A stretch of DNA of 64,000 nt from NCBI RefSeq assembly GCF_003473485.1, contig NC_053049.1, forward strand, positions 32,137,292 to 32,201,291. Direction: 5' to 3'. Positions 3,335 through 61,679 of this stretch are shown piece after piece. How positions within the stretch are numbered: position 1 is the first letter of the stretch; each line of letters begins with the position of its first letter. Made by a program: the position numbers and the translations under genes. The notes beneath the pieces were generated by a model. The model did no database searches and was not told the DNA's origin. It worked only from the letters and a program-made list of their open reading frames with translations. The stretch comes from Medicago truncatula. Taxonomy: Eukaryota > Streptophyta > Magnoliopsida > Fabales > Fabaceae.

Positions 3335-4070
3335 GCAACATGGGTGTGGTGAAGGTGGGGAGGCGTGGAAGTAGAGGAGGAGGTTGTTTGCTTGGAAGGA
3401 GGACCTTTTTAGGTGTTGTTGTTTTTTGCTTCATAATGTTGTTTTGCAGGAAAGTGTAGTTGACCGTTGGAAGTGGTCTCTTGATCCAGTTAAAGGCTAC
3501 TCTATCGGCGATGCATATCAGATGTTCACAGCAACAGACCAAAATCCTAACAGGGCTAACATGTATACCATATGTCATAAACAACTTCCTCTCAAGGTCT
3601 CTTTATTTGTGTGGTGTCTCTTTCACAATTGTCTCCCAACAAAAGATAATCTCTTAAGGCGAGGCATTGTTCACCCAGATGCTACCAATTGTGTAGGAGG
3701 ATTTGCTCTTCCGGAGACTGCGGATCACCTATTCATCACTTGCAGTCATTTCAGCCAGTTATGGGTGCTTGTTCGAAGTTGGCTCGGTTTCTCTTCGGTT
3801 GATACTTTCCGTGCTTTCGATCATGTTGTGCAGTTCGGCCAGCTTGGTGGGTTTCCTCGTTCCTCTCACCATTTTTTGAAACTTATTTGGTTCTCTTGTG
3901 TCTGGACAATTTGGAAGGAAAGAAACAATTGAGTCTTCAACAGCCAAGCTTTGGTGTTACATCAGTTGCTCTACAAAGTTAAATTATTGTCTTTTTTGTG
4001 GCTTAAGGCAAAAAATGCCACACTTTTGTTACTCTTATTATTGTCTACTTGTTGATGATTAAAATAAAGG
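3335..4070 (+). mobile_element. L1-type LINE fragment, ORF2 C-terminal zinc-binding (zf-RVT) region
   Basis: The open frame 3384-3932 encodes the region downstream of reverse transcriptase in plant LINEs: a WKWSLDPVKGYSIGDAY block, then LPLKVSLFVWCLFHNCLPTKDNLLRRG, split here as LPLKVSLFVW and LPTKDNLLRRG, then CVGGF...ETADHLFITC and VWTIWKERNN. The same blocks occur in the larger LINE at 43.5-44.1 kb. After an in-frame stop the similarity goes on (SFLWLKAKNA) to about 4050. There is no RT or endonuclease, so this is a 5'-truncated, decayed copy just downstream of DCL2. No clear poly-A or target duplication was found. Confidence 0.75.
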
Positions 4071-5659: not shown

Positions 5660-6220
5660 GAGGTTAGGGTTTCTTTTTAAGGTTGCTTTATGGACAAGAA
5701 AGTAATTTGTTGAGATTTTTTCGGCTACAATAATTATTTAGATTTGGATTTAATACATCTTTCGTATGATCAATCCTAAAAAAAACCATTCAAAGATCCA
5801 ACCGTCCAAGTCATCAACCCACACCTAAACCAAATCACCCAATCAAATCACAGAAACTAAATCATATATATATATATATATGTCTATTTTTTTTTCCTTT
5901 TATCATTTAAAAAATGTAACAAACTAAATGAGTATATATTTATACTTACTTTTTCATTATCCCAATTATACTTTTAAACAACTTTTTCTATAATAAAGAT
6001 CGTTGTTGGTGTCATTATCCCAATTATATATATTTTTTTATATTGTTGGTGTCAATAAAATAAACAATTATGATTAGTTTGGTTTATTATAACTTGAAAG
6101 CAGCAAACATTTATATTTTTAATTTTAATCCAAATCAAAATTTCATAAAAAAAAAAAAAAAAAAAAAACATCGTTAATAATTTTCAAAGGTAAGTGAAAT
6201 AAAAAGAGCGGAAAGTCGGA
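5660..6220. other. AT-rich spacer with poly-A and TA tracts
   Basis: Contains a short TA run near 5868-5881 and an A tract of about 20 bases at 6148-6168. No gene is seen. Confidence 0.5.
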
Positions 6221-6262
6221 CACGTGAGTGCCTGTCCACTAATATATATATATATATATAAA
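6221..6262 (+). promoter_or_regulatory. G-box and TA-rich core promoter region upstream of the H2B-like gene
   Basis: CACGTG at 6221-6226 is followed by a (TA)n run ending in TATAAAC at about 6255-6263, 55 bases before the H2B ATG. The arrangement resembles a plant core promoter, but the TA run could equally be a plain microsatellite. Confidence 0.3.
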
Positions 6263-6316
6263 CAAAACACAGCTGAGACAAAAATCTCATTCTTCATCAC
6301 TTCCAATCCTTCAAAA

Positions 6317-6607
6317 ATGGCAAAAGCCGTAGAGAAAAAAGTAGCTGAGAAGAGACCAACGAAGAAGAAGGACACAGAGAAGAAAATCCCAAAGGAAGGA
6401 GAAACATGGAAAAAGAGATCAAAGAAAAGCATTGAAACCTACAAGATATATATATTCAAGGTTCTCAAACAAGTTCATCCTGCCATTGGTGTTTCAAGTA
6501 AAGCTATGGGAGTTATTAACAGTTTCGTGAACGATATCTTTAAGAAACTCGCTCAAGAACTGTTGAGACTCGTGCGTTATTATATAGATACGAATTTTAA
6601 CATATAA
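6317..6607 (+). pseudogene. Histone H2B, C-terminally truncated
   Basis: The start is [18 protein letters not shown], a lysine-rich H2B tail, then [20 protein letters not shown] and [19 protein letters not shown], nearly identical to plant H2B up to the middle of the histone fold (DIFKKLAQE). From LLRLVRYY onward the canonical RYNKKPTITSREIQTAVRL helix and the C-terminal helix are missing; the frame stops after DTNFNI, giving 96 residues against about 140-150. Without the second half of the fold it could not pair properly with H2A. The ATG at 6317 is preferred over an upstream one in the TA repeat. The stop codon lies in the 8-bp sequence duplicated around the adjacent composite hAT structure, but the loss of homology begins about 35 bases earlier, so the insertion alone does not explain the truncation. 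Confidence 0.72.
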
Positions 6608-6612
6608 GATGT
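6605..6612. repeat. Left 8-bp target duplication of the composite hAT structure
   Basis: taagatgt lies directly before CAGGGATGG and recurs exactly at 10515-10522 directly after the last CCGTCCCTG. Eight bases is the hAT duplication length. Confidence 0.8.
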
Positions 6613-6719
6613 CAGGGATGGCCTCAAGTTATAGAGAATGTGGGCATTGGCCGTCACTATCTTTTGGAGAAAAAATTGAATAGCATTTGTATTATTTTTA
6701 ACTCAAATAATGATCTTTG

Positions 6720-6771
<52 letters not shown>

Positions 6772-7310
6772 AATACTAATAATATAGGTATTTTGATTAA
6801 TATTATATATGGTCATGTAAACAAGTGCTCTAAGGGTGTTATTTAAGGATTTCATAAAAATAAATTTTGTTTTGAAAATACTTAGTAATATTTAAAAAAA
6901 AATATATGCAAAAGTTACCACTTTTGATTGTTTAAAAAATTTCTTAAAGGTGTTTGTTAGTATTTTCTTATTTTATGTACATAACAATCTTTTCTATAAC
7001 GTTAGTGGAGACAAGAAAATATGTTGTTCACTCATTGATATATTTCCTTTTAGAGTTTTCTGTGTGTGTATGTGTGACAACTATAATTGTTGAAAGAGTT
7101 TTCTCCACAATGAATATTATTAAAAACTGAACGCGGAATCACAAGAGAATAATTATGAAGTATATTTTTTTGGAAAGAATTATGATGTATATTTATATTT
7201 TCAAAATTAAAGTAGTGTGTGTGTTTGCGCACGCGTGTGGGTGGATGGGTGTGTGCGTACGTGCGTGTGTGTGTTGCCCTCACTACTCAAGACTTTTGGG
7301 TTCGTCCCTG
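6613..7310. mobile_element. hAT-like non-autonomous element, copy E1
   Basis: About 698 bp, from CAGGGATGGCCTCAAG to CTTTTGGGTTCGTCCCTG (approximate inverted ends). The inside holds an (AT)n tract at 6722-6761 and a GT-rich tract near 7209-7275, with no transposase. It is nearly identical to E2 and close to E3 apart from microsatellite length. Confidence 0.75.
6722..6761. repeat. (AT)n microsatellite in E1
   Basis: Pure AT dinucleotide tract followed by a short TG run. The corresponding tracts in E2 and E3 are longer, at about 8314-8371 and 9930-9979. Confidence 0.9.
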
Positions 7311-8204
7311 AGTTAAGTATGCCTCCCTTTTCAACCTACACATTCATTTGGAGCTTAACATATGTACTCCAATGTAGATTCCCTCGCCCCACATTTTGTG
7401 ACAATTATACATTTCAAAGCATCAATCCCTTGTTGTAATCCTAACCAAGTCAATATAACTCGATTTAAAAATAAAACAAGGCAAAATTGTAGCCATTTCA
7501 CGTGTAGAAACTCTTCCATAAGCACAAGCATTCAGAGAAGCATCCAGCACAAAGGGAGCGGCTTCCAGGATATCCCAGGCAGACACTTTTAGTTTCACTA
7601 AAGCATTATCCAATCCAGACCCGAAACTAGAAGAGATGCTGCTTCCTAAGGTCATAGGTGTCAAAGGCTCAGAAGCAACATTTACCTTCCTAAACATCAT
7701 CCTTAGTAAAGCATCAACAATCTGTTGAACAGGCCCTCTAGGCATAAGACCCGAGTGGGTCGAAGCAATGCGTTCTTGATGTTGTCGATGCCAAAAGTTT
7801 AGTTTTGAAAAGGAATCCATATATACATATTCTTTAGGAAAGCGTACAATTTTTGACAATCTTTTGAGCTTTAGACTATCCTTTGTTGATCTTCCAAATG
7901 ATGCAACTCTACTGTTTCGAACCAATAAAAGGTTTTCAGGACTAAATAGATTTTCAAGTGGTGGAGTTGCTTCATTTCCCCTTACTTATTCAATGGGTAA
8001 GTGATCAAACCGTCAGAATCTAAGCAAAAGAGTAAATGCATTAGAGAACACCTCATGAGGAGAGAGTTTTCCTCTGGTTGCGACAGTCCATGAGACATCA
8101 GAAACCCAAGAGCAAAAAATCTCACATATTTGCATTAGCCCTGCTGCAAGTAATGGAACTTGAAATGAAAAAACAACAACATGTATCAGAATCAGAAACA
8201 CAAG
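7311..8204 (-). pseudogene. Mediator subunit MED33/REF4-like gene fragment, copy M1
   Basis: On the minus strand this segment encodes part of MED33 (REF4/RFR1 family), a Mediator tail subunit that represses phenylpropanoid genes in Arabidopsis. Upstream piece, about 8170-8013: PLLAAGLMQICEIF then KLSPHEVFSNAFTLLLRF. Downstream piece, 7925 to about 7430: VRNSRVASFGRSTKDSLK, FPKEYVYMDSFSKLNFWHRQ, PVQQIVDALLRMMFRKVN and VSAWDILEAAPFVLDASL. The order and spacing match the family. The two pieces lie in different frames with a break between them, and coding similarity stops after STREMAT where intron-like sequence follows, so this is a captured genomic fragment and not a cDNA copy. It lies between hAT-like copies E1 and E2. 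Confidence 0.75.
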
Positions 8205-8311
8205 CAGGGACAACCCCAAGTTATAGAGATTGTGGCCATTGGCCGTCACTATTTTTTGGAGAAAAAATTGAATAGTATTTGTATTATTTTTAACTCAAAT
8301 AATGATCTTTG

Positions 8312-8375
<64 letters not shown>

Positions 8376-8932
8376 AAAATACTAATAATATAGGTATTTT
8401 GGTTGATATTATATATGGTCATGTAAACAAGTGCTCTAAGGGTGTTATTTAAGGATTTCATAAAAATAAATTTTGTTTTGAAAATACTTAGTAATATTAC
8501 AAAAAAAAATTATGCAAAAGTTACCACTTTTGATTGCTTAAAAATTTTCCTAAAGGTGTTTGTTAGTATTTTCTTATTTTATGTACATAACAATCTTTTC
8601 TATAACCTTAGTGGAGACAAGAAAATATGTTGTTCGCTCATTGATATATTTCCTTTTAGAGTTTTCTGTGTGTGTCTGTGTGACAACTATAATTGTTGAA
8701 AGAGTTTTCTCCACAATGAATATTATTAAGAACTGAACGCAGAATCACAAGAGAATAATTATGAAGTATATTTTTTTGGAAAGAATTATGATGTATATTT
8801 ATATTTTCAAAATTAAAGTTGTGTGTGTGTGTGTGTGTGTGTTTGCGCACGCGTGTGGGTGGATGGGTGTGTGCGTACGTGCGTGTGTGTGTGTGTTGCC
8901 CTCACTACTCAAGACTTTTGGGTTCGTCCCTG
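8205..8932. mobile_element. hAT-like non-autonomous element, copy E2
   Basis: From CAGGGACAACCCCAAG to GGGTTCGTCCCTG, about 728 bp. It is longer than E1 mainly through its (AT)n (8314-8371) and GT tracts. The 8 bases on its two sides do not match each other, so E2 was not inserted here on its own. Confidence 0.75.
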
Positions 8933-9825
8933 AGTTAAGTATGCCTCCCTTTTCAACCTACACATTCATTTGGAGCTTAACATATGTACTCCAATGTAGA
9001 TTCCCTCGCCCCACATTTTGTGACAATTATACATTTCAAAGCATCAATCCCTTGTTGTAATCCTAACCAAGTCAATATAACTCGATTTAAAAATAAAACA
9101 AGGCAAAATTGTAGCCATTTCACGTGTAGAAACTCTTCCATAAGCACAAGCATTCAGAGAAGCATCCAACATAAAGGGAACGCCTTCCAGGATATCTAAG
9201 GCAGACACTTTTAGTTTCACTAAAGCATTATCCAATCTAGACCCGGAACTAGAAGAGATGATGCTTCCTAAGGTCATAGGTGTCAAAGGCTCAGAAGCAA
9301 CATTTACCTTCCTAAACATCATCCTTAGTAAAGCATCAACAATCTGTTGAACAGGCCCTCCAGGCATAAGACCAGAGTGGGTCGAAGCAATGCGTTCTTG
9401 ATGTTGTCAATGCCAAAAGTTTAGTTTTGGAAAGGAATCCATATATACATATTCTTTAGGAAAGCATAATATTTTTGACAATTTTTTGAGCTTTAGACTA
9501 TCCTTTGCTGATCTTCCAAATGATGCAACTCTACCGTTTCGAACCAATAAAAGGTTTTCAGGACTAAATAGATTTCCAAGTGGTGGAGTTGCTGGATTTC
9601 CCCTTACTTATTCAATGGGTAAGTGATCAAACCGTCAGAATCTAAGCAAAAGAGTAAATGCATTAGAGAACACCTCATGTGGAGAGAGTTTTCCTCTGGT
9701 TGCGACAGTCCATGAGACATCAGAAACGCATGAGCAAAAAATCTCTTATATTTGCATTAGCCCTACCGCAAGTAATGGAACTTGAAATGAAAAACAACAA
9801 CATGTATCAGCATCAGAAACACAAG
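8933..9825 (-). pseudogene. Mediator MED33/REF4-like gene fragment, copy M2
   Basis: Near-identical second copy of M1, 893 against 894 bp, starting with the same agttaagtatgcc after the element end. The minus strand again gives PVQQIVDALLRMMFRKVN and NACAYGRVSTREMAT. Small changes break the long frame present in M1 (VSALDILEGVPFMLDASL here). Neither copy can make a Mediator subunit. The near identity indicates a recent tandem duplication of the E-M unit. Confidence 0.72.
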
Positions 9826-9926
9826 TAGGGACGGCCCCAAGTTATAGAGATTGTGGCCATTGGCCGTCACTATTTTTTGGAGAAAAAATTGAATTGTATT
9901 ATTTTTAACTCAAATAATGATCTTTG

Positions 9927-9982
<56 letters not shown>

Positions 9983-10261
9983 TATTAATAATGTAGATAT
10001 TTTTGTCAATATTATATATGGTCATGTAAACAAGTGTTTTAAGGGTGTTATTTAAGGATTTCATAAAAATAAATTTTGTTTTGAAAATACTTAGTAATAT
10101 TACAAAAAAATTTAGTTTCCACTGTTGATTGCTTAAAAAATGTCCTAAAGACGCTTGTTAGCATTTTCTTATTTTATATACATAACAATATTTCTATAAC
10201 GTTAGTGGAGACAAGGAAATATGTTGTTCACTCATTGATATATTTCCTTTTAGAGTTCTTA

Positions 10262-10296
<35 letters not shown>

Positions 10297-10514
10297 ACAA
10301 CTATAATTGTTGAAAGAGTTTTCTCCACAATGAATATTATTAAGAACTGAATGCAGAATGCCAAGAGAACAATTATGAAATATTTTTTTTTTTGGAAAGA
10401 ATTATGATGTAAATTTATGTTTTCAAAATTAAAGTAGTGGGTGGGTGGGCGGATGGGTGCATACGTGCGTGCGTGTGTTGCCTTCACTGCTCAGGACTTT
10501 TGGATCCGTCCCTG
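9826..10514. mobile_element. hAT-like non-autonomous element, copy E3
   Basis: From TAGGGACGGCCCCAAG (first base changed from C) to CTTTTGGATCCGTCCCTG, about 689 bp. It is the most diverged copy, with extra AT and GT runs around 10261-10297. Its right end is followed directly by taagatgt (10515-10522), the partner of the repeat before E1. Confidence 0.75.
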
Positions 10515-10522
10515 TAAGATGT
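10515..10522. repeat. Right 8-bp target duplication of the composite hAT structure
   Basis: taagatgt is identical to 6605-6612. It delimits 6613-10514 as one inserted unit. Confidence 0.8.
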
Positions 10523-10689
10523 TGTTCCATTTGTCTCAACGAACATTTTCAAAATATCAAATGTTGCTAAGCATGCTTTTCATTTGGATTTATTATAAAA
10601 AATTAAAAATATTAATAATTAAAATTGTGTATTGACGTTGACTTTGACATGTATTTAAGAATGGATAGAGTAACATTTTGTTTTTGCAA

Positions 10690-11620
10690 ATTAAATCATT
10701 TGATGAAATTCTTAAAAAGAGTTGGTGTCAAAGCTTATTCAATTTTATATGAAGGAAAGACTCACGCAGATGATGCAAGTAATTGACCATTCTGCTTTTC
10801 CTTTTGACTGCAGAGATTCAGAAATAGTTTTTGAGTATATGCTTCTTTTTAACATTCATTGACCACCCTTGTCAATTTTATCTTACACCTTTGAAGTTTA
10901 CACTATTACATGTTGTTAATGGAAGCTCATGATAAATGATGGATCTAAAAATTTGAATTAGTGGGGGCACAATAACATAAAAAATTATTATTATTAATGC
11001 ATAAATTAAACAACAATTTGAAGATTATAAATTTATAGTATAATATACCCAAAAATTGAAGATACCTCAACATCTACAAAAATATATTTCATTTTAACAC
11101 TATAAAAAATATATTTCTCTATGCATGTGATCAAATAAATATTAGTGTGGGGGCATCCCTTAATTCCATTGGGTGCATCACTTAATTTTTAATAGAAAAC
11201 ATATAAAATATTTTAAAAAGTAATACTCAAATAAAAATTTGGTGTGGTGCCAATTGCCCGCAATACCTCTAACGTGGATCTTTGTGCTTGCTTATGATAT
11301 CATCTTTTCAATGTGAAGTTAGGTGAACATGACATGTTACTTAATGTTAAAGGCATGATCGATTTTGAAAAAAGTTCATCTTTGAAAACACCATAAATAG
11401 ATTTTTGGCATTTTTCAAATTTCTAAAAATACGCACATGTAATCCAAAAATGCATTTTATAAAATATCATAAAATATATTATTTAATTTTTGTTGAGTGG
11501 AAAATGTATTATTAATTAATGTTTATTATTTTAATTGCAATGAAAATGAAACAGGAATACATGATCCATTGAGGGATGGAAAAGATGATATGTTTGATGA
11601 AGGCAAGTGAGAAGGAAAGG
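10690..11620 (+). pseudogene. ICME-like gene relic, remnants of the last two exons
   Basis: 10700-10775 resembles exon 10 of the ICME gene at 22,849-22,939: cttaaaaagagttggtgtca matches cttaaaagatttggagttaa, and attttatatgaaggaaagac matches the stretch encoding [10 protein letters not shown]. About 780 bases on, 11,555-11,605 (gatccattgagggatgg, gatgatatgtttgatgaagg) resembles the start of exon 11, which encodes [13 protein letters not shown]. Frames are broken, and the intervening intron-like sequence is longer than in the intact gene (about 770 against 311 bases). This is a partial, old duplicate of the gene 12 kb downstream. Confidence 0.6.
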
Positions 11621-11650: not shown

Positions 11651-12235
11651 AGTGAGTGACGTCACTTGTAGCAATAGGAACGATTCCTCTAAAAAAATTA
11701 AAGTTAGACACACGACTGCAACGTGAAACAATGTGGACAACCAAACATCACCAACATGAGTTTGATGACTTTAAACCCAAGCTAGAGGGATCCACCGCAA
11801 AACCAAACACATGCTTATAATATATGTTGCACTTATTAATATTTTTGTTTTACCCTATATACTATACTACGATCTCAAGACTCTGTTCATTTGTTTGTTT
11901 GATTAGGACTTAGGAGAGAAGCATGGAAGCATCAAAAGCAAGATTAATCATCTACCTCTTATTATTGAGATTAGAGATGACATCGAGTATTCTTAAGTAG
12001 GAATAAGATATTATAGTATTCATCTTCATACTCACGTTTATAAAATAAGTTTGTATCTAAGTTTATATTTTCGTGGACAATAAATTTGATATTCGTCTCC
12101 GTACTACTTTTTGGGCACCTAAATCTTTGTATCTATGTTCATTACCCGCACTTTCACAACAAAAACACAATAAATAACAAAAAAAAAAAAAAACAATCAT
12201 AACATAACTAAATATGATTTAAAACTTTCAATTTA
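11651..12235. other. Spacer, nothing firm; one 25-codon frame at 11,922
   Basis: An ATG at 11,922 opens a 25-codon frame (MEASKARLIIYLLLLRLEM then TSSILK and stop) downstream of a TATATAC at about 11,857. It resembles the start of a secreted-peptide exon, but no second exon could be attached. I do not call it a gene. Confidence 0.3.
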
Positions 12236-12237
12236 TA

Positions 12238-12384
12238 CTCCCTCTAGTCCTTATTATAAGAAAAAACTGACTTTTTAGGTTCATAGAATAATTAATGTAT
12301 CTTATTATAAATATAGACTAGATACATCACTTATACAATGAACCAAAAAAGTTAATTGTTTCTTATAATAAGGACCGGAGGAAG
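12238..12384. mobile_element. Stowaway-like MITE, 147 bp
   Basis: Terminal inverted repeats CTCCCTCTAGTCCTTATTAT and its near complement ending ATAAGGACCGGAGGAAG, flanked by TA on both sides (12,236-37 and 12,385-86). The TA duplication and CTCCCTC ends fit Tc1/mariner-type Stowaway elements. Confidence 0.75.
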
Positions 12385-12386
12385 TA

Positions 12387-14380
12387 AAATATTACAAAAT
12401 AATTGATGAGGCCTTAAAAACACTGCTCAATCGAGATTGCCAACAAAGTTTGTGATTCCGTGCGTGCATGTGTGTGTCACTCTCAGCAAAACATGGAACT
12501 CTTTCATTCATGATCCCAACCAAAACAACTCTACTGACAACTATTAACAACCTCTATTTTTTTTTTTTGGTCCTAATAACTTCAGTGTGAAGGAAGTAGT
12601 ACGTGGCGACCTAATGTATTCTTAACACATGTACCGATACATTAAGACCATGATGCTGCAATTTCAATTCCACACACGTCCTCTCCATGCCCCACACTCC
12701 AACTGATGCGGCAATTTTTCCATTTGTGTGTTTGGATGAAAAGTTTAGGAGGAAAAGAGACGAGAGAGTTTACTTTTCATTTATAACATACTGATACTAG
12801 GAAATATTTTTAAAAAAGTTAACATATTAACATGATAAACGATCATATGATACTTCAATCACACTTAAGTCATTTAAAAAAAAAAACATGTTAAATAGTC
12901 CGTAATTTAATAAAGAAAAACAAATATTTTCATCTCTTCTTCTCCTAAACTCTCGATCCAAACAAACCCTCAAAATAAGCAAAATTGATACCTCAATTAT
13001 CCACGATGTCCAAAGTGTGAATTCTTCCATACAAATATACATGTCAACTCGAAACTTATTACCCTCTCCCATGATAATATTATATATTTTAATCCACACT
13101 TTTCATATTCTTTTAATTTATAGTTTTTCATTTCTTCTTCAATAAGAATTGTTTATTGGGGATTAGATAGCTAAACTGAAAGATTTAGAGCTGTCAGCTT
13201 TTAAAGGACTACAAAAATCATCAGTGAATTCGTGAAAAGATCATATTACCATTTATAGATGTATTATTATGCGAAACTTTAAGCAAAATATGCACACAAG
13301 AGATCATGTTGTTTAGGATAGTTTAGAATAGTTTCTTTTGAAAAGCATTTTTTGTGATTATAGTTTTTTAAAACAAGTGATTTTTATTTTTTTTTCAAAG
13401 TGTTAATTGTCCTATTATACGCTCACAAAATTAACTTATGATTTTTTTAAACAACACTGCTATATAGTGCGAATTTTTTCTCTTGAAAAATCAAGAATGA
13501 GCATGTATTTATATTGGTTTAAAGTCCGGCATTTACGGAATACAGGATGTTGTGGTGTTAATTTTTTTTTTTGTTGCTACTAGCCAATTTAATCGTGAGT
13601 TAAGCACTTCCCTTTTCTGAAACCTCTAAGAAATTAACCTCTAAATTATTGTTAAAATTGTGTTTTTTGTTTTCAATCCGTAACAAACCCCCCTCTCTCT
13701 ATCTCCCTCTCTCTCTAAATATTATGCCCATATGAGTTTTCTTTAACTAACGTAACTTGAGCGACGTTTAACTTTCCACTTAAGATTATTATCTAATTCG
13801 CTCGCACGCAAACAAGGAAGGTTAGCGGGTCTAAGATGCAACAATAACTTCCATTCAGATCTAATCAAGAGATAAATCCCACAAAAGGCCAAAATGTAGT
13901 CACTTATTTATTAGAGTTTGTTTGGTAAAACACATATTTGAGCGTATGATTAAAAAAACTTGTTTGATAATAGATTGTTCTCACAAGTTTATAACTTTTT
14001 TTCATAAGCTAATTTATTTCAAGTAGTTTATAACTCATCACATTTTATCTCGATTTTACCCATACAATCTTAATTGAAAAATATAAATATTTATTTAATA
14101 TATTTTTTTATATCATTTCATATTTATTAACTACTTTCCTTAAAAAAAAAATATATTTATTAACTATTTCAATCTTTAATTTAATCAAACACTTTAAATT
14201 CAATCTTAGCATATGTTTGATTTTGCGGTGTATAAATTTGATTTTGATATAATTGATTATAGAAATTGATTTTGGTTAAAAATGATTTTGACTAAATGTA
14301 ATGTGCGTTGGATAATTCATTAAAAGTGAATTAAACTTAAAATTTGTAAATAAAAATTAGTTCATAAGCTGAAAACACTG
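12387..14380. other. AT-rich intergenic region
   Basis: No gene is supported. It holds CT-rich simple sequence at 13,690-13,715. Around 13,905-14,215 is a weak inverted arrangement (gtttgtttggtaaaac ... catatgtttgattttgc) of the kind left by decayed hAT-like MITEs. Confidence 0.4.
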
Positions 14381-26655: not shown

Positions 26656-27157
26656 CTACAAAGTTAGCATAGAAAAGAAAGTTGTAAGTTGTCAAAAGAT
26701 TTGTAAGAATTGCTGAAAACTGAAATCTATAACAGATGCATTTTAATCAAAGATTCAAACATACTAGCCAAAGCAAGTCTCAGTTATGTGCTACACTGCT
26801 GCAAGTCAAAACAGAGATTTTCCTTAGGATTGGTATGGGGAGTCGAGATCGTAAAATGTGAGAATATGACACTGATCTTAAATTAGATTAAAACTTCTAA
26901 ATTGAACCAATCATCACTTCTAAATTAACAAACTTTGTTTATGTCTTGATGCAATGAATTTTGGGAGAACATGTGTTTCAAATTACACATCAAATATATA
27001 AAAAAAAAAATGAGGGGCAAATATTCGAATTCGATGAACACGATCAACCTATTTAACAATATCAATATTGTCAATTGAGTTAAGCCTTGCCCGTTACTGT
27101 AAAAACTTGAAAGTATTGTTATATACTTCATGTGCAACCATTAAAAAAGAAAAAAAA

Positions 27158-27352
27158 AATGGAAAATGTTACATGAACACCCTTTATTTCTACACCCCAT
27201 TGTACACCCCATGTATTAGGGATATTTTGATAAGTTCATCTCACAACCACACTTTATCTTCTATTTGTGCGGGGTCCAAGTTGCCACGTGTCAGAATTTT
27301 GTGTGGGTGTAAAGGGTGTATTGCCACATGGGGTGGTACATGTATCATTATT
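27158..27352. mobile_element. MITE-like insertion upstream of LTP-A, absent from the B copy
   Basis: The left part aatgttacatgaacacc is inverse to the right part ggtggtacatgtatcatt. In copy B the sequence runs straight from aataaaaaagaaaaaaatta to agcatacgttgtgcaatg, an empty site. The superfamily is not determined. Confidence 0.6.
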
Positions 27353-28198
27353 CAAAAAAAATTAAGCAAACTTTGTGCAATGCAAAACCACACGTGTACT
27401 AGTCTTATAGCTCAAGCATGCTTAGTGGAACAAATTATGAGGTAGTCTAAGTGCATCAAAATTTTGTCTGCCCAACTTTTTCTATGTTCACACTATATTT
27501 TTCAGCTCACCTACTTCTTTGCTATGTCGATAGAATAAGATATGCTTCAACCTGAAGAAGAAAGCATAAGGTCTCTCTCCTAAAACTGTGAGAAAGAGTT
27601 TATTTATAAACTTCTCTTCTCAAATTTATTTCTCAAATTTATTTATATACACATTCATCGTAAAAAAATTACATTCTAAATCAATTATAACCGTTAAATC
27701 ATTATAAACGTTTGACTTTTATCATAACCACTTCTAAAGTCATACATATTTTAATATAGATGGTGCATGAAAATATAAAGCTCCTTCTTAAACTCGTTCC
27801 GGGGTTTCAACTCAACTACTTGAACATGAGACTATTTATAGTTTATCTGAATTTAACACACAAATGTAAATAACTATTATGTTCAAAAATAATCTTTAAT
27901 ACGAAATGTCAAATGTTACATATACAACAAAAACACTTATCTATCTAATAGAGACTTATTCAGCAAGTACTTAAGTTATTGAAATGTTGTATCCATATTT
28001 TTGATACTGGCACACTAAGGTATACACATTTTGTTCTATCCAAGGAACATGCCTATCAAAGGCTACTCAAGGGATACTCTTTGTGAACCTTCTACCATAA
28101 ACATTATCATTGTAGATTGAATATCATAATGTCACAACCACCCCACTAGGGCTAATATCATATTCATGAGTCATGCCCCTTTTTCACTTTACTACTAC

Positions 28199-28205
28199 TA
28201 TATAA
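28199..28205 (+). promoter_or_regulatory. TATA box of LTP-A
   Basis: TATATAA, 100 bases before the ATG at 28,299. It is identical in position and sequence in LTP-B. Confidence 0.5.
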
Positions 28206-28298
28206 CTATGGAACTTGCTCCTTCTAATTCAATGTGCCATATACAAACTAGTCAGTGATTCAAACACATATATTATGAGATTTTCAAAACCAATAGTG

Positions 28299-29084
28299 AT
28301 GGAGTTCAAGGTTAGAACTTTCCTTGCAACAGTAGTGATGTTTCTGTTGGCATCAAGTGTGTTCATTTTGGAAAGTGAAGCAGGTGGAGAATGTGGAAGG
28401 ACACCAATTGGGTCAGCAGCTGCTAGTCTAAGTCCATGTTTGGGTGCTGTACGTAATGTTAGGGCAAAAGTTCCACCAGTTTGTTGTGCTAGAGTTGGTG
28501 CTTTGCTTAGAACTTCTCCAAGATGTCTTTGTTCAGTTCTTTTGTCACCTCTTGCAAAACAAGCTAAGATTAATCCTGCTATTGCTATCACTGTTCCTAA
28601 GAGATGCAACATTAGGAACCGACCTGCTGGAAAGAAATGCGGAAGTAAGTAACAATTAATCATTAATAGCTTGTTGAACTTAAATAATATTTAATAATCA
28701 TATTATATTTAGTGTGTTTGATTACGCGTTTACACATTCCTTAATGTGCGTTCAATATGAAGCTTAGCTACTACTAGTTGTAACTTGTGCCGTGAGCAGC
28801 CTTGGAATGTGAAAATGGCGAACTCATCGTAGTTCCAAAGAGACACTTCGTACATTTTTTAGTGCACACTTGAAATAGTAAGACGCAAGGTCAAAGTAAA
28901 GCCGATAGTTGCAACTTGCAGCGTCGACATTGCAAATTTACCTTAGTTCTGAAAACACTTTAACCTTTCATTGATTCATATTTTTGGTAGACTAGAATTG
29001 AGAATTTGTAAAACTAAAATAGGAAACATATTTACACTTTAACCTTGTTTTTTTTCCTTCTTTACAGGGTACACACTTCCTTGA
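28299..29084 (+). CDS. Type V non-specific lipid-transfer protein, copy A, 120 aa
   Basis: Secreted small protein that binds lipids in a cavity held by four disulfides. Exon 1 is 28,299-28,644, the intron 28,645-29,067 (GTAAGT..TTTACAG), exon 2 29,068-29,084, adding only RYTLP after KKCG. The start MEFKVRTFLATVVMFLLASS gives a clear signal peptide cleaved near SEA-GGEC; an upstream in-frame ATG would bury the signal peptide. The eight-cysteine motif has spacing C-14-C-14-CC-12-CLC-24-C-10-C, which by recall of the Boutrot classification is type V. The intron is about four times longer than in copy B because of an insertion. The protein differs from copy B by only one residue in exon 1 (Gly for Ala after SEA). 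Confidence 0.88.
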
Positions 29085-29225
29085 AACCTAAGCAGGAAAA
29101 TAATACAATACATGTGATATGCAGTATTTAACAGATTAGAGAGCTAAATAAATTATGTAACATGGCATTTTCTACTTGGAGAGTGGCATGTGTCAGCCTG
29201 TAGCATTTTGTATTACTCAGTGTAT

Positions 29226-29735
29226 TGTTTATTACAGAAGCAAGCAAATACAAAAGAAACTGAAGACATTACTTAAAGCACAAGTTACATTTACATTTGT
29301 AATTTCAGATTGCATTTACATTTCATTTAGCTTACATCTAGTTGGTTAGATGTTAGTTACTCTCTAACCTTCTATAAAAGCTTCTCTATATATGTAACAG
29401 ATTCCAGAATAATGAATGATATATAATCACTTTTCCTAGTTTCAGCTTATTCATGGCTTTTCTATTCTTAGATGGTATCAGAGCAGGTTCGTCATACTTT
29501 GCTTCCGCATTGTAAAGATTGAACATTGATCTTGTTGATCTTCGTTGTTATTCTAGATTCATCGATTCGTTATCGTTTCGATTTGCATACTCTATTTTTC
29601 TTTGAGTAGATTCATCTTTGAATCTCTTCGTTTTTTTGTGAAATTGTGTTGCATGATGGTGAGAAACAACAATGGTATGCAGAATCAAGACCAGAGTCTG
29701 TCACAACTATTTAATTGTGATACTGTTTACACTGA
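29226..29735 (+). mobile_element. Ty1/copia 5'-end fossil (LTR plus start of internal region)
   Basis: A short LTR-like stretch of about 245 bp carries TATAAAAGC-type promoter sequence at 29,374. It is followed at about 29,473 by a primer-binding site complementary to initiator tRNA-Met (TGGTATCAGAGC) and a few hundred bases of leader and first gag codons. The rest of the element is missing, so it is a broken fossil. It abuts the end of the LTP-A duplication; copy B has no such element. Confidence 0.6.
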
Positions 29736-36195: not shown

Positions 36196-36543
36196 GGCTT
36201 ATTCAATCACCCGGTCCCTTAACTTAATTGATTGTCTCAATTTGGTCCCCAAACTATAGTTTGTACCAATTTGGTCCCCTATATTTTGCTTTGTTACTAG
36301 CTTTAATCATTTCTGTTAGTTTCTCTCGTAAAAACGTTAACTTATGTACCAATTTGGTCTCCTATGTTTTACTCCGTTACTAGTTTTAGTCCTTTCTGTT
36401 AACATTTTTTTGAGAGAAACTGACATAAATGACTAAAACTAGTAATGAAGCAAAACATAGAGGACCAAATTGATACAAATTATAGTTAAGGGACCAAATT
36501 AAAACAATCAATTAAGTTAAGGGACCAGGTGATCAAATAAGCC
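36196..36543. mobile_element. MULE-type MITE, 348 bp, 9-bp target duplication
   Basis: Long terminal inverted repeats beginning GGCTTATTCAATCACCCGGT and ending ACCAGGTGATCAAATAAGCC, with ttggtccc/gggaccaa motifs inside. Flanked by aaacatcaa (36,187-36,195) and aaacattaa (36,544-36,552), 8 of 9 matching. Nine bases with long TIRs indicate a Mutator-like origin. Confidence 0.8.
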
Positions 36544-40139: not shown

Positions 40140-43100
40140 AAGGTTACAAAGTCTCTTGAGGTGACTCACTTCTCCAATAACGAGTCAGGGTCGGCGGCTT
40201 CGGTAAATAATGATTGGAAAAATTGGGTCGTGTTACGTGGGAATGCTAAGGCGAATGAAGTGGATATCGAAGATATAGGCAAGGTCATTGGTGTATCTTT
40301 TGAAGGTGGCTTAAATAATAGATTTGGTGTGTTGTCTCGGTCTAAAACGTTGGGGGAGGGAGGCCGAGAGCATGGTGGTGGTGTTTAGGAGGGACGGTGC
40401 GGTGTGGGTGTGTGGTGTGGTGGGTTGTGGTGATGCGGTTGGTGTCTTGGAATGTGAGGGGGTTAGGAGGGGTGGAGAAACGGAGGGAGGTGAAGTTGTT
40501 GGTGAAGGAGAAATGTCCGTTGGTTTTGTGTATACAAGAAACTAAGATGATGGTGTGTGATGGGTATGTGCGTTCCTCGTTGTGTAGGGATTCGAGCTAT
40601 GATTATTCGTATCGCTCTTCAGTGGGGGCATCAGGTGGGTTATTGACGATGTGGGATACGACGGAAGTGGAGGTATGGTCGTCGTTTAGTCAGGAACATA
40701 TGTTGCAAATCCATGGCAGAGTTCGTAGTAATAATGAGGAATTTTATTTATTTAACATTTATGCACCGTGTGACTTAAGAGCTAAAGCGGAATTGTGGGA
40801 AGCTATATCAGAAAGATTGCAGTCGCTCAGGGGAAAGAAAGTGTGTGTCTGTGGGGATTTTAACGTAGTAAGAAAGCCAGAAGAAAGAAGATCAGTCATA
40901 GGGGGTGGTGTGTCTTTGGATATTAATGCTTTTAATTTATTCATTGAAGAGAACGGGTTGATAGATTTGCCGTTGAATGGTCGTAGTTTTACTTGGTTTA
41001 AGGGAGATGGTTCGTCTATGAGTCGAATTGATAGGTACTTGTTGTCAGAAGAGTGGTGTTTTAGCTGGCCAAATTGTTTTCAGGTAGCCCTACTCTGGGG
41101 TCTCTCTGATCATTGTCCGTTACAGTTATCTATTGATGAGGAGAATTGGGGTCCTCGTCCGACGCGGATGCTGAAGTGTTGGCGAGAGGTGCCGGGTTAT
41201 TCAGATTTTGTTTCAGAAAAATGGCGTTCATTCCAAGTTGAGGGATGGGGAGGTTTTGTGCTCAAAGAAAAATTGAAATTGATGAAGGTAGCGTTAAAGG
41301 AGTGGCACTCGACACATGCTCAAAATATGCCGGCCAAAATTAATTCTTTGAAAGCCCGTTTGTCGGATTTTGATGAAAAAGGTGCGGTTAGTGGGTTGTC
41401 AGTTGAAGAAATTGATATTATGAGGGGTATTACACACGACATTCATTATATGTCTCGTGTTAATACTAGCATTAGTTGGCAACAATCGAGGCTATTGTGG
41501 TTGAAAGATGGAGATGCTAACTCGAAGTACTTTCATTCGGTTTTATCTCGTCGTCGTCGACGTAATGCCATTGTGTCACTCATGGTTATCGGCTCTCTTG
41601 TAGACGGTGTTCAACCAATTCGTCAGGCAGTTTTCACCCATTTCAGGGACCATTTTGCGGCTCCGGATGTGTTTAGGCCGGGGGTTGATAATTTAACTTT
41701 CAAAAATTTATCCTTTGCGGAAGGAAATGGGTTAATTAAACCTTTCTCAGTTGATGAAGTAAAGACAACAATTTGGGATTGTGATAGCTATAAAAGTCCC
41801 AGACCAGATGGTGTGCACTTTGGTTTCATTAAAGATTTTTGGGAAATGTTGAAAGGGGATGTTATGGGATTCATTCAGGATTTTCAGAGGAACGGTAAAT
41901 TAACCAAAGGTATTAACACTACTTTCATAGCTTTAATTCCTAAATTGGATAGTCCGCAGCGCTTAAATGACTTCCGGCCTATCTCTTTGGTGGGTTGTCT
42001 ATATAAAATTTTGTCAAAAGTGCTTGCAAATCGTCTGAAACTGGTTTTGGGGAGTTTGATAGCAGAGACACAGACTGCTTTTGTAAAAGATAGGCAAATT
42101 CTTGATGGGATTCTCATTGCAAATGAGGTGGTGGATGAGGCTCGCAAATCAAAGAAGGAGTTGATGCTTTTTAAAGTTGACTTTGAGAAAGCGTATGACT
42201 CAATAGATTGGGGTTATCTGGATGCAGTTATGAGTAAAATGGCATTCCCGGTTTTGTGGAGAAAGTGGATAAAAGAGTGTGTGTCGACAGCTACTGCTTC
42301 TGTTTTGGTTAATGGCAGTCCTACAGATGAGTTCCCTTTAAAAAGGGGCCTGAGACAAGGAGACCCTCTTTCACCTTTCCTTTTTTTGCTGGCAGCAGAG
42401 GGTTTGAATGTTATGATGACTTCGTTGGTTGAGAACAATTTATTTACTGGTTACGGGGTGGGTCACGCAAATGCCACTGTGGTTTCGCATCTCCAATTTG
42501 CGGATGATACTTTGATTTTAGGTGAAAAAAGCTGGGCCAATGTAAGATCTTTACGGGCGGTTTTATCCTTGTTCGCGGATATGTCAGGTTTGAAAGTGAA
42601 CTTCCATAAAAGCTTATTGGTTGGAATTAATGTTACGGAATCTTGGTTAAACGAGACGGCGTCTATTTTGCATTGTAAGGTTGGTAAGGTTCCTTTTTTG
42701 TATCTTGGCCTATCGATTGGTGGTGATCCTCGGAAACTAGCATTTTGGGACCCTGTTTTGCATACCATTAAATCTAGATTGTTAGGGTGGCAGAGTCGTT
42801 TCCTCTCATTCGGGGGCCGATTGATTTTGCTCAAGTCTGTCCTGTCCTCTTTGCCTGTCTATGCTCTTTCCTTTTTCAAAGCTCCGTCAGGTATAATCTC
42901 TTCCATTGAATCTATGTTTAAATTGTTTTTTTGGGGAGGGAGTGAGGATAACAGGAAAATTTCCTGGATCGCTTGGAATTATATTTGTTCTCGTAAGGAG
43001 TATGGGGGTTGGGTGTGAGGAAATTGAAGGAGTTTAATCTTGCGTTGTTAGGCAAATGGTGTTGGAGGATGTTAGTTGATCAAGGTGGGTTGTGGTATAG

Positions 43101-44227
43101 GGTTTTGGTGGCGAGATATGGTGAGGAGCCTGGGAGGTTGGAGGTAGGGGGCCGGAGTGTCTCTTATTGGTGGAGGGAGATAGCGAAGATTAGGGATGGG
43201 ATTGGTGTTGACGGAGGGGGCTGGTTTGATGAGAGGGTAGTGAAGAAGGTAGGAGATGGGTTGAATACCTTGTTTTGGTATGATAGGTGGATAGGAGGTA
43301 TTCCGTTGTTTAGGCGGTTTGAACGTTTATTTAGCTTAGCACTTAATAAGCTGAGTACGGTGTCAGATATGTTCATGCGTGGCTGGGAGGTAGGAGGTGA
43401 TGCGTGGAGCTGGAGGAGACCATTGTGGGTGTGGGAGGAGGAGATGTTAGGCGAGTGTTGCATGTTACTTAATACTTTTATTGTGCATACTGATGTTTCT
43501 GACAGGTGGCAGTGGCTCCCGAACATTGGGGGAGGCTATACAGTAAGCAATGCGTATAAGAACTTAACGTTTCAGGCTGCCCCTTTGATTATCGTGACAG
43601 ATGATCTCGTTTGGCACAAGTATGTTCCTTTGAAGGTGTCCATTCTAGCTTGGCGACTTCTTCGCGATAGGCTGCCCACGAAGACCAATCTCTTGCGGCG
43701 CGGCTATCAGATGTGTCGCGGGGTGTGGCTTCGACGAAACGGCACACCATTTGTTTCTTCATTGTGATTTTTTCGGCGGCCGTTGGCATCATATCAGGAA
43801 TTGGCTTGGCTTTTCAGGTGTCGATCCGTTTACCATTCATGATCATTTTTATCAGTTTACTAACTCTATTGGTGGGTCGACGAAGCGCCGGACAATCATG
43901 CAAATGTTTTGGCTCTTGTGTGTATGGATTGTTTGGCACGAAAGAAATAATATAATTTTCAATAATACACAACTTACTATGATAGATCTTGTAGAAAAGG
44001 TTAAGTATCATTCTTTGTGGTGGCTGAAAGCTAACAATGCCAACTTTGTTTATGGCACGAGTAGATGGTGGTCGGACCCGTTACTTTGTTTGGGTATCGA
44101 CTAACTTATTTTTGTAATTATGTAGTGACTGTTTGTTCTTTGGGGTGACCTCTTTAGTACACCTTGTGCTATAGAGAATTCATCGCCGTTGTTAATATAT
44201 TCCATTTTTTATTCTTAAAAAAAAAAA
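40140..44227 (+). mobile_element. L1-type LINE, about 4.1 kb, 5'-truncated
   Basis: Contains the tail of ORF1 (NNDWKNWVVLRGNAK, VIGVSFEGGLNNRFGVLSR, stop at 40,388), all of ORF2, a 3' UTR with the ctttggggtgacctc...ccttgtgctat motif, and an A run at 44,217-44,227. The boundaries are inferred from the uninterrupted copy of the flank at 59,275: the flank reads ...aatctaa before and tgttataagaat after the element, and the same joined sequence (with ta between) in the empty copy. No target duplication is visible. Confidence 0.85.
40433..44104 (+). pseudogene. LINE ORF2: endonuclease, reverse transcriptase and zf-RVT, two frameshifts
   Basis: The start MRLVSWNVRGLGGVEKRREV is the usual ORF2 opening. 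APE-type endonuclease motifs: SWNVRG, CIQETK, YAPCD, VCGDFNVV, SDHCPL. Reverse transcriptase motifs: LNDFRPISLVGCLYK, KVDFEKAYDSIDW, RQGDPLSPFLF, catalytic LQFADDTLIL, then FLYLGLSIGG. After RT come the W-rich connector and the zinc-binding block (LKVSILAWRLLRDRLPTKTN, HHLFLHCDFF, WHERNNIIFN). The first frame is 873 codons, to TGA at 43,018. One-base changes near 43,010 and near 43,710 move the protein into two further frames; the last one ends at TAG/TAA near 44,104. Long open frames mean a fairly recent insertion. Confidence 0.85.
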
Positions 44228-44650: not shown

Positions 44651-45508
44651 TTTTGTAACTTTATTTCTCTTCACATCTATTTTGTAACATTATAAAGTTT
44701 AAATTGTAAATTTTAAGATAAATTATATAATAAATAATATTGTATAGTCTTATCAATGATATGTTGTGAAAAAAAAGTTGTTTGTAACACGAAACTTGAA
44801 ATTTTGTAAGAAAAAGAAAGCAAGGACTGAAATTGAAAACATAATATTTAAAGGGACCAAAAATTAAAGAATTTTGTTATAAAGAATAAAACGAAAATTT
44901 GATATTTTTATAAGGATTAAAACATATTTAACCCAATTGATTTTTTTTTCCAAATTTAAAATTAGATTAGAACTTCTAAATTGAACCAATCATCACTTCT
45001 AATTTAACAAACTTCGCTTATGTCTTGATGCAATGATGAGTTTCAATCATGTATTTCAAATTACACACCAAATATTAAAAAAAAAAAAAACAAAAGTGAG
45101 AGGCAAATATTGGAATCTGATAAATACGATCAACTTATCTAATAATATCAACTTTGTCAGTTGTGATAAGTCTTACCATGGAAATTGAAAGTATTGTTGC
45201 ATACTTGATGTGCAACCAATAAAAAAGAAAAAAATTAAGCATACGTTGTGCAATGCAAAACCACACGTGTACTGGTCTTATAGCTCAAGCATGCTTAGTG
45301 GAACAAATTATGAGGTAGCCTTAGTGCATCGAAATTTTGTATGCCCGACTTTTACTATGTTCACACTATATTTTTCAACTCACCTACTTCTTTGCTATGT
45401 CGATAGAATAAGATATGCTTCAACCTGAACAAGAAATCATAATAAGGTCTCTCTCCTAAAACTTTGTGAGAAAGAGTTTATTTATAAACTTCTCTTATTT
45501 AATTTATT

Positions 45509-45795
45509 GGGTTAACGGTGCTTTATACCCTGTAATATATGTCATTTTTGGTTTTCCCCCCTGTAATTTTATTTTTTGATTTACCCCCTGTAATTTTATT
45601 TTTTTTGGAATACCCCCTAATAGGTCATAAAAAAACGAAAAAATTCTGGAAAAACAAAATAAAGTCGTTTTTTTATGACCTATTAGGGGGTATTCCAAAA
45701 AAAATAAAATTACAGGGGGTAAATAAAATAAAATATTTTACAGGGAGAAAAACAAAAAATGACCTATATTATAGGGGGTAAAGCACCATTAACTC
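45509..45795. mobile_element. MULE-type palindromic MITE, perfect 9-bp target duplication
   Basis: The ends GGGTTAACGGTGCTTTA and TAAAGCACCATTAACTC are inverted, and the whole 287 bp folds as a long hairpin (ccccctgtaattttatttt against aaaataaaattacaggggg). taatttatt flanks it exactly (45,500-45,508 and 45,796-45,804). Copy A of the segmental duplication has the empty site near 27,636. Confidence 0.9.
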
Positions 45796-46266
45796 TAATT
45801 TATTTATATACACCATCATTGTAAAAAATTACATTATCAATCAATTATAACTGTTAAATCATTATAGACATTTGACTTCTATCATAACCACTTCTAAAGT
45901 CATAAATATTGATTGTCATATGTTGACAATGTAAATATTTTAATACAAATGATGCATGAAAATATGAAGCTCCTTTTCTGACTCGTTCGGGAGTCTCAAC
46001 TCAACTACAGGAGATTATTTATAGTTTTTTTGAATTTATCACACTAAGGTTATAAATAACTACTATGTCCGTAAACAATCTTTACTGGCACACTAAGGTA
46101 TACACATTTTGGACTGTCTAGTGAACATGCCTACTCAAGGGATACTCCTTATGAACCTTCTAACATGAACATTATCATTGTAGATTGAATATCATAATGC
46201 CACAACCACCCCACTAATGCTAATGTCATATTCATGAGTCATGTCCCCTTTACACTTTACTACTAC

Positions 46267-46273
46267 TATATAA
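46267..46273 (+). promoter_or_regulatory. TATA box of LTP-B
   Basis: TATATAA, 100 bases before the ATG, conserved with LTP-A. Confidence 0.5.
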
Positions 46274-46366
46274 CTATGGAACTTGCTCCTTCTAATTCAA
46301 TGTGCCATATACAAACTAGTCAGTGATTCAAACACATATATTATAAGATTTTCAAAAACAATAGTG

Positions 46367-46834: not shown

Positions 46835-46975
46835 AACCAAAGCAGGAAAATAATATATGTGATATGCAGTATCTGACATATTAGAGAGCTAAATAAATTC
46901 TGTAACATGACATTTTCTACTTGGAGAGTGACATGTTTCAGCCTATAGCATTTTGTATTTCTCAGTGTATTGTTG

Positions 46976-56195: not shown

Positions 56196-56206
56196 TGGAT
56201 GTACTT

Positions 56207-61479: not shown

Positions 61480-61679
61480 GAGAAATGCTAAGGACAAACT
61501 CTCAAACACACTCTTTCAACACACTCCAATAATAGGAAGCCACCTCACCCCAATTTTTAATACATTTCAATTTCATATTAGGTTGTCAGTTAATTAAACA
61601 AAGGATGGGGATGATGTGTCAACATGTTATTGGAGTGTGTTGAAAGAGTGTGTTTGAGAGTTTGTCCTTAGCATTTCTC
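61480..61679. mobile_element. Hairpin MITE with 50-base near-perfect inverted ends
   Basis: GAGAAATGCTAAGGACAAAC through caacacactccaataa is repeated in inverse as ttattggagtgtgttg through GTTTGTCCTTAGCATTTCTC. 200 bp in all. The flanks ataaacata and ataaaccata differ by one extra base, consistent with a 9-base duplication. Confidence 0.75.

Follow-up and report, generated by a model that had tools for sequence, protein, structure and literature searches.

The array at positions 6605–10522 of the window, by which we mean the whole stretch of 64,000 nucleotides analysed here (part of contig C8), probably originated when two small hAT-type elements carried the exon lying between them to C8 as one macrotransposon, the resulting E-exon-E unit being later enlarged in place by unequal exchange. 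All comparisons were made within one 430-Mb plant genome. From left to right, the array consists of the 8-mer TAAGATGT (6605–6612), the element E1 (6613–7310, 698 bp), the gene fragment M1 (7311–8204), the element E2 (8205–8932, 728 bp), the second fragment copy M2 (8933–9825), the element E3 (9826–10514, 689 bp) and an exact second copy of TAAGATGT (10515–10522). The three elements have one common orientation, on the plus strand, and the two fragments, in which an intron end, a 673-bp exon and an intron start can be recognized in M1, lie on the minus strand. E1 differs from E2 at 15/518 and from E3 at 42/503 of the unmasked columns to the right of column 60, and M1 differs from M2 at 30/893 aligned bases, plus one gap. 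The E-M-E-M-E layout of the original prediction is therefore real, and so is its statement that the inner junctions do not match each other: AGTTAAGT is found to the right of E1 and E2, AACACAAG is found to the left of E2 and E3, and neither matches the other or the outer TAAGATGT pair. The further statement that TAAGATGT occurs only at the outer ends was correct as to the exact outer pair but not as to the rest of the window, where the same 8-mer occurs three more times (at 30467, 47465 and, on the opposite strand, 17845).

The elements begin with CAGGGATGG, CAGGGACAA and TAGGGACGG in E1, E2 and E3, respectively, and end with TTCGTCCCTG, TTCGTCCCTG and TCCGTCCCTG, i.e., both termini vary between copies and are not uniform as had been thought. 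Within each element the two termini form short inverted repeats, with 7/9, 8/9 and 8/9 bases pairing, and the inner ends of all three are of full length with few base changes. Short terminal inverted repeats of the CAGGG type are typical of the hAT family, and an 8-bp target-site duplication, the length characteristic of the hAT superfamily, surrounds the unit as the exact TAAGATGT pair; on the ends and this duplication we assign E as hAT-like. The peptide TTIIVERVFSTMNIIKN, which presumably resembles the C-terminal region of hAT proteins, is present in all three elements, and a Pfam search of the residual E peptides returned no transposase domain. The window has 17 open frames of at least 120 amino acids, none of them inside an E element. 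The end pattern taken alone is uninformative, since it gave 507 forward and 515 reverse matches and its reversed control 621 and 583.

Judging by the insertion site, the outer TAAGATGT pair is a genuine target-site duplication. Two random 8-mers of the window are identical by chance with P = 7.8e-5. The array interrupts a dispersed repeat, whose left remainder (6568–6612, plus strand) matches a consensus of related copies and whose right continuation occupies 10515–10690 of the same strand. Among seven related copies that were aligned, four (L061, L064, L065 and L067) continue across a single exact TAAGATGT and have repeat sequence on either side of it; L063 also has one exact TAAGATGT but only about ten matching bases on its left, L066 carries TAAGATAT at the site and L060 is out of register. 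Because the query used for the repeat copies began with TAAGATGT, only the match of the left flank is independent evidence. When 6568–6612 is compared with the consensus of the related copies, 15/20, 19/25, 21/30 and 24/37 of the bases before the 8-mer match, and for these four lengths 3, 1, 5 and 4 of ~128,000 window positions (both strands, the site itself included) are equally good; if the consensus is replaced by the single copy L064, the number of equally good window positions is 4 to 110. On the right, 40 of 150 candidates were scored and listed as matches, the flank itself among them, and 34 of these begin at flank base 1. The continuity of related repeats through one TAAGATGT argues that the insertion duplicated this 8-mer, and a chance pair, the objection that the original prediction had itself raised, is rejected both by the probability given above and by these paralogous copies of the flank, which show one TAAGATGT at the insertion point. 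As a separate observation, the flank at 6260–6612 is histone-like, and a left-flank search started from 6000 gave matches dominated by another repeat.

The source of M is a locus on contig C7 that belongs to a gene which we take to be MED33-like. Positions 34–894 of the M query correspond to C7:44515929-44516789 (93% identical) and positions 1–33 to C7:44517333-44517365 (100% identical), both on the minus strand, and M is collinear with C7 except for 543 bp found only in C7. The C7 gene and its paralog on C2 match over several exons in a tblastx comparison. For the M peptide, Pfam gave nothing relevant and PDB no match; the only match to an M peptide, a sub-threshold Pfam trans-sialidase model, was taken as chance. 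At C7 the exon is open and its splice sites (CAG and AG|GT) are present. A copy of E at 44515500–44515928 of C7 adjoins M at exactly the junction seen in the array as M|E2 and M|E3. The other end of the C7 stretch reads ...AAATAT AGTTAAGT ATGCC..., with one AGTTAAGT and no E, and E1 and E2 in the array stop exactly before AGTTAAGT, as expected of a target site; the single AGTTAAGT of C7 is thus an unoccupied site for a second element. The native right flank of E at C7 is GATACAAG..., and the duplication belonging to this C7 element, hereafter E_b, matches at 5/8 positions (P of at least 5 = 0.044), or at 6/8 if the left flank from the array is used (P of at least 6 = 0.008), and looks decayed. 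Outside the E elements, no match was found between the window and the 10-kb C7 stretch.

In the scenario that we favor, E_a and E_b, in the same orientation, would have occupied two introns flanking one exon of the C7 gene, with E_a at the site that is now a single AGTTAAGT. Transposase would have brought together the left terminus of E_a and the right terminus of E_b and moved the pair directly, so that E_a-exon-E_b, ~2.3 kb long, would have departed as a single macrotransposon, its four element ends all kept intact, and entered the dispersed repeat on C8, duplicating TAAGATGT. The carried exon would then have decayed, and E1 and E3 would be descendants of E_a and E_b. Later, E_a and E_b would have crossed over unequally within the left part of E that contains an AT microsatellite, producing E-M-E-M-E, and a further conversion tract would have homogenised both the right end of E and the first 236 bp of M. 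Two complete end elements and one outer target-site duplication, as expected of a macrotransposon, are found on C8. The prediction that two hAT copies moved a MED33 exon together, with E elements around the same exons at the source gene, agrees with the target-site duplication and with the E at one C7 junction, but there is no E at AGTTAAGT, and because the only E of the C7 locus stands at one end of M, a donor with E at either end is something that we infer.

Where E_a came from is a question of its own. With a probability that we place slightly below even, it was no unrelated arrival but the product of a local jump of E_b, over ~0.9 kb, not long before departure. Over 272 columns, the divergence is 7.0% for E1 and C7, 8.8% for E3 and C7 and 7.4% for E1 and E3, and the M copies differ from C7 by 6.9 and 7.7%, i.e., all these values are at 7–9%, as expected if E_a and E_b had hardly differed at departure; in addition, the tree of right ends places E1, E2, E3 and the C7 element together with a support of 0.944. 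Against this, once microsatellites are masked, an element at C5:6614289 is 8.1–9.3% from E1 and thus about as close to it as the E of C7 (8.6%), and bootstraps in the wider E tree are 17–57 without E2 and 6–68 with E2. Because the masked C5:6614289 comparison removed the resolution of the tree, the idea of E_b as the proven parent of E_a was dropped in favor of a possible one.

It is clearly unlikely that the pair never moved and that a lone E inserted on C8 at TAAGATGT and was later broken, repair from the C7 template giving E-M-E, which then underwent unequal exchange. Such a break could come, e.g., from abortive excision, the outer duplication would be the same, and a matching outer pair alone is compatible with a single E widened by ectopic repair. 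Gap filling is said to account for the majority of single-copy gene captures among animal TIR elements (PMC8277862), and for Ds an error of repair has been suggested (PMC3260210). However, the repair route requires more steps and either a C7 template with two E elements or an end-joining of the exact last base of E to AGTTAAGT; moreover, the right end of E1 is complete and nothing of the native C7 flank GATACAAG... lies between E1 and M1.

The state of the fragments bears on both the manner and the order of events. M has an intron-exon-intron structure with the intron ends included; therefore, the transfer was DNA-based, and copying from spliced RNA is rejected. Both splice sites, intact at C7, are lost in M1 and M2, and both fragments contain stops, two of them in frame in M1. 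M1 and M2 agree with each other and differ from C7 at 50 sites. Judged by the C2 paralog, the change fell on the array branch at 16 of these sites and on the C7 branch at 18; 4 fit neither branch and 12 have no C2 base. Since M1 and M2 have array-only changes and lost splice sites in common, the second E-M unit arose after departure, i.e., decay came before duplication. Of the two sizes that the original prediction had allowed for the mobile unit, 2.3 kb (E-M-E) is thus favored and 3.9 kb disfavored. That the five-part array arrived whole, either in a 3.9-kb move or as an ordinary segmental duplication, is very improbable: the outer duplication would appear identical and an unseen intermediate locus may have existed, but the changes just described speak against it, the C7 locus contains a single M and a single E and not the 3.9-kb arrangement that the prediction had considered for a donor, and a segmental copy is at odds with the lack of a window match to the 10-kb C7 stretch outside the E elements. 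Hardly credible is an independent insertion of E copies around a resident MED33 pseudogene on C8 with outer 8-mers matching by chance, which would agree with inner junctions unlike the outer ones but is rejected given the chance value, the related repeats with one TAAGATGT, E_b at the same C7 junction and, again, no match to C7 outside the E elements.

In a bacterial composite transposon, two complete elements mobilise the DNA between them. The array works likewise, as had been predicted, but the likeness goes no further: its ends are of the plant hAT type, it has no selectable cargo and no insertion-sequence transposase, and no E contains an open frame of 120 amino acids or more. A nearer parallel is provided by the Ac/Ds macrotransposons of maize, for which Huang and Dooner 2008 and Wang 2022 are reportedly the works cited. 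According to the accessible parts of two papers, a linked hAT pair and the intervening DNA move together there, leaving an 8-bp footprint at the excision site (PMC9910405, PMC3260210). The array is alike in that two linked hAT elements would have moved with the DNA between them; it differs in having 0.7-kb non-autonomous ends and a single exon, in being old (~7% divergence) and in having been expanded in place. The naturally occurring compound Ds-l4-483 of maize, which consists of a Ds-like element, a foreign transcribed sequence and another copy of the same Ds with one outer target-site duplication, has the same element-cargo-element arrangement, but its second Ds is truncated, and the portion of the source seen describes neither a one-element donor nor a tandem unit (PMC3260210). 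In Pack-TYPE elements, including Pack-hAT, nearby insertions in the same orientation trap gene DNA when their outer ends act as one, as far as the available text of two reports goes (PMC8903248, PMC13317346). Here, too, an exon of the C7 gene lies between outer non-autonomous ends, but in the Pack-TYPE scheme, as given in that text, the inner ends are deleted or mutated, whereas all inner ends persist in the array. The main text of PMC8903248 contains no occurrence of Medicago, and a literature search by titles and opening abstract text found no paper on this C8 locus. Calling such structures rarely documented was an overstatement, at least in light of the parts of these reports that cover Ac/Ds macrotransposition and Pack-type co-mobilisation, that of hAT included (PMC9910405, PMC3260210, PMC8903248, PMC13317346); because both processes are published, the array is a new and unusually complete example of a process known from maize and other plants.

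The origin of gene pieces inside cut-and-paste elements is still disputed, and natural cases usually show the end product only. In this case, one genome keeps most of the steps: the source gene with an intronic E, the unoccupied site, relatives of the landing site, the inner ends and the expansion, whose exchange point is roughly mapped. The neighbouring-element model can be tested against gap repair in other accessions at three named sites. Since three full-length sets of ends are present, renewed movement of any sub-unit, E-M-E as well as E-M-E-M-E, is conceivable in principle. We also regard as rather doubtful, but worth stating, a two-stage exon amplifier in which a hAT macrotransposon exports an exon and recombination between directly repeated E elements then multiplies exon units; if it existed, captured exons could spread and multiply without loss of inner ends, and tandem exon arrays would arise from gene capture by a distinct and uncatalogued route.

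The expansion in place left its traces in E2, which looks chimeric, with a left end like that of E3 and a remainder mostly like E1, and a chimera is what unequal exchange between the flanking E copies predicts. Derived bases are common to E2 and E3 at columns 26, 32 and 49 and to E1 and E2 at columns 191, 231, 348, 385, 603 and 652, and the mosaic has a max-chi-square permutation p of 0.023, a value based on few sites, with conflicting columns at 588 and, beside a poly-A, at 300 and 301. Together with the M1 and M2 changes absent from C7, the mosaic supports the original proposal that unequal exchange added an E-M unit, and this exchange may have been a crossover. The differences between M1 and M2 are unevenly distributed (0/236 and then 30/657, P = 1e-4), and we propose that the first 236 bp of M and the right end of E were homogenised by a conversion tract.

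The E-M-E-M-E array of the original prediction, at 6605-10522, is borne out by the mapped coordinates and by the outer pair of TAAGATGT 8-mers (6605-6612 and 10515-10522), between which lie E1 (6613-7310), M1 (7311-8204), E2 (8205-8932), M2 (8933-9825) and E3 (9826-10514). The E units are non-autonomous elements of about 0.7 kb, probably of the hAT superfamily, although Pfam gave no transposase domain for their peptides, and M1 and M2 are copies of a fragment (M) of a gene on contig C7 of the same genome. The window itself is C8:32137292-32201291. The inner flanks, AGTTAAGT and AACACAAG, are present in two copies each and are both unlike the outer pair. All three elements terminate on the right in a common ending (CGTCCCTG), but the left ends are less uniform than predicted and come in three variants (CAGGGATGG, CAGGGACAA and TAGGGACGG). 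Nor is TAAGATGT confined to the array edges: further copies are found in the window at 30467 and 47465 and, on the reverse strand, at 17845. The probability that two random 8-mers of the window are identical is 7.8e-5.

The right flank from TAAGATGT on is a dispersed repeat, with 34 of the 40 matches listed (self included; the best 40 of 150 candidates) starting at base 1. Ten repeat loci were fetched and seven were aligned; L058, the window's own copy, was left out, as were L059 and L062, whose matches lie in other parts of the flank. In L061, L064, L065 and L067 there is a single exact TAAGATGT and the repeat is continuous on both sides; L063 also contains a single exact TAAGATGT but matches over only some ten bases to the left of it, L066 has TAAGATAT in its place, and L060 is out of register in the alignment. 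Since the query began with TAAGATGT, the independent evidence is the left flank of the window, which matches the repeat consensus at 15/20, 19/25, 21/30 and 24/37 of the bases before the 8-mer; among the window's roughly 128,000 positions, 3, 1, 5 and 4, the true site included, score as well, and against L064 alone the numbers for the same four lengths are 4, 110, 17 and 10. We take the repeat copies to represent a paralogous empty site, which shows that TAAGATGT was duplicated at insertion. An open frame resembling Histone H2B (Pfam Histone, E 9.2e-10) occupies 6318-6607 and continues into the repeat remnant just ahead of the array; it looks like a gene copy that has been truncated. Dozens of places share about 77-86% identity with a second dispersed repeat, at 6000-6236, and a search with the whole left flank gave at least 46 matches, self included, in the best 40 of 1221 candidates scored.

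A search with M1 of the genome (one assembly of 430 Mb in 42 contigs, on which the whole analysis is based) returned seven matching stretches: M1, M2, the C7 gene, matched in two parts (93% for query 34-894 and 100% for query 1-33), its paralog on C2 (74%) and two short pieces on C6. On the minus strand of C7, M spans AGTTAAGT to AACACTAG, and a 430-bp E copy whose middle is partly missing follows directly (descending from C7:44515928 to about 44515499, ends CAGGGACGG and CCGTCCCTA); this junction is identical to those of M1 with E2 and of M2 with E3. The far side of M reads AAATAT-AGTTAAGT-ATGCC, with no E there and no footprint visible at the AGTTAAGT site. Thus, the idea that E elements flank the same exon at the donor holds for one side of M but not for the other: the donor locus still has one element, and nothing occupies the site of the other. 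A 543-bp GC-rich stretch inside the C7 intron (C7:44516790-44517332) is missing from the M copies of the array. A small internally deleted fragment of the donor gene lies at C6:8536021-8536397, with no E match in the surrounding 8-kb stretch.

Macrotransposition of E-M-E, in which two linked elements and the DNA between them move as one unit, is in our opinion the most likely mechanism and a rather probable one, for it accounts for the inner ends being full length, for E1 joining AGTTAAGT exactly, for the junction at the donor and for there being only one outer duplication. The main rival, a single E at C8 that was widened through ectopic gap repair, seems improbable beside it. Deletion-hybrid, gap-filling or fork-switching have been described as alternatives for gene capture (PMC13317346, PMC8277862), and the accessible part of PMC13317346 mentions neither hAT nor macrotransposition. 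The original prediction considered composite movement of this kind to be rarely documented for plant hAT MITE-like elements, which is an overstatement. As far as the accessible portions of these sources go, Ac/Ds macrotransposons mobilise up to 100 kb by excision and reinsertion (PMC9910405, PMC3260210), Ds-l4-483 is a natural compound Ds in maize with one outer duplication (PMC3260210), and neighbouring insertions moving together have been proposed for Pack-type elements in a paper that reports a shared orientation for 12 of the 15 local hAT pairs in maize (PMC8903248); the C8 array therefore belongs to a process already known. Ac reversed-ends events, according to the accessible part of PMC3744419, also yield tandem duplications with 8-bp target duplications. 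None of the papers listed by our literature searches is on this C8 locus.

M consists of a 673-bp exon together with the end of the intron before it and the beginning of the one after it. Its protein is presumably MED33; Pfam and PDB searches with M yielded no name. The exon is open in C7, where its edges are CAG and AG|GT, and in both M1 and M2 these are replaced by CAAG and ACAATT and two stops are found at matching places. Several exons of C7 align with C2 (tblastx, best five alignments), and C2 was used to polarise the 50 sites at which M1 and M2 agree with each other but differ from C7: 16 changes are assigned to the array branch, 18 to that of C7 and 4 to neither, and 12 sites have no C2 base. 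Private changes number 18 in M2 and 11 in M1. The changes common to M1 and M2 on the array branch imply that their shared ancestor had already left C7, and hence that the moved unit was E-M-E; of the two sizes originally proposed, about 2.3 kb is thus favoured and 3.9 kb disfavoured. The unit may have made an intermediate stop at another locus.

The proposed growth of the array by unequal exchange adding an E-M unit gains support from the mosaic structure of E2. To the right of alignment column 60, in unmasked columns, E1 and E2 differ at 15/518 positions, E1 and E3 at 42/503 and E2 and E3 at 39/503; in the first 60 columns the differences are 3 for E2-E3, 7 for E1-E2 and 6 for E1-E3. In an alignment that includes the E copies of C7 and C5, derived states are common to E2 and E3 at columns 26, 32 and 49 (C7 as outgroup) and to E1 and E2 at columns 191, 231, 348, 385, 603 and 652 (C5, or C5 with C7, as outgroup); columns 300, 301 and 588 conflict, and C7 and C5 disagree at several others. 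Applied to 47 sites without polarisation, the max-chi-square test gave p = 0.023. The likeness of E2 to E3 at the left and to E1 elsewhere is what is expected of one crossover between the proposed ancestral elements E_a, the source of E1, and E_b, the source of E3; the crossover point would lie between column 49 and about column 190, an interval that includes an AT microsatellite. M1 and M2 are identical over their first 236 bases, with all 30 differences falling in the 657 that follow (P = 1e-4), and there are no E1-E2 substitutions after column 557 in unmasked gap-free columns, a combination that points to a later conversion tract, probably spanning the right end of E and the first 236 bases of M.

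The divergences E1-E3 (7.4%), E1-C7 (7.0%) and E3-C7 (8.8%) are similar to those between M and C7 (6.9 and 7.7%), as if E_a and E_b had been near-identical at departure. E_a may have arisen by a local jump of the E of C7. A right-end tree groups E1, E2, E3 and C7 (0.944); in a longer masked alignment, a copy at C5:6614289 is 8.1-9.3% from E1, compared to 8.6% for C7, and bootstrap values in the corresponding tree range over 17-57 if E2 is left out and over 6-68 if it is included. Near-full-length matches to the mid-region are E1, E2, E3 and C5 only (best 40 of 54), and the genome search with E3 covered the best 40 of 128 candidates scored; among the matches listed, E has few long relatives.

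Elsewhere in the window, collinear duplicated segments at 26880-29229 and 44959-46974, with pieces 75-94% identical, each contain a small secreted protein gene (28215-28652 and 46283-46720) that we take to be lipid-transfer-like. A GC-richer stretch at 40397-43767 is strongly G-skewed, and the long open frames in it presumably resemble LINE-type endonuclease/reverse transcriptase. Open frames at 1800-2651 and, after it, 3384-3932 are, we assume, similar to a Dicer-like RNase III domain and reverse-transcriptase-like, respectively. Two 172-bp stretches, 56205-56376 and 63829-64000, are 98% identical; the first is presumably inside a pentatricopeptide-like reading frame, and the second reaches the window end. 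Four near-palindromic stretches, 78-84% self-complementary (12233-12389, 36196-36543, 45511-45793 and 61480-61679), are probably foldback or MITE-type repeats.
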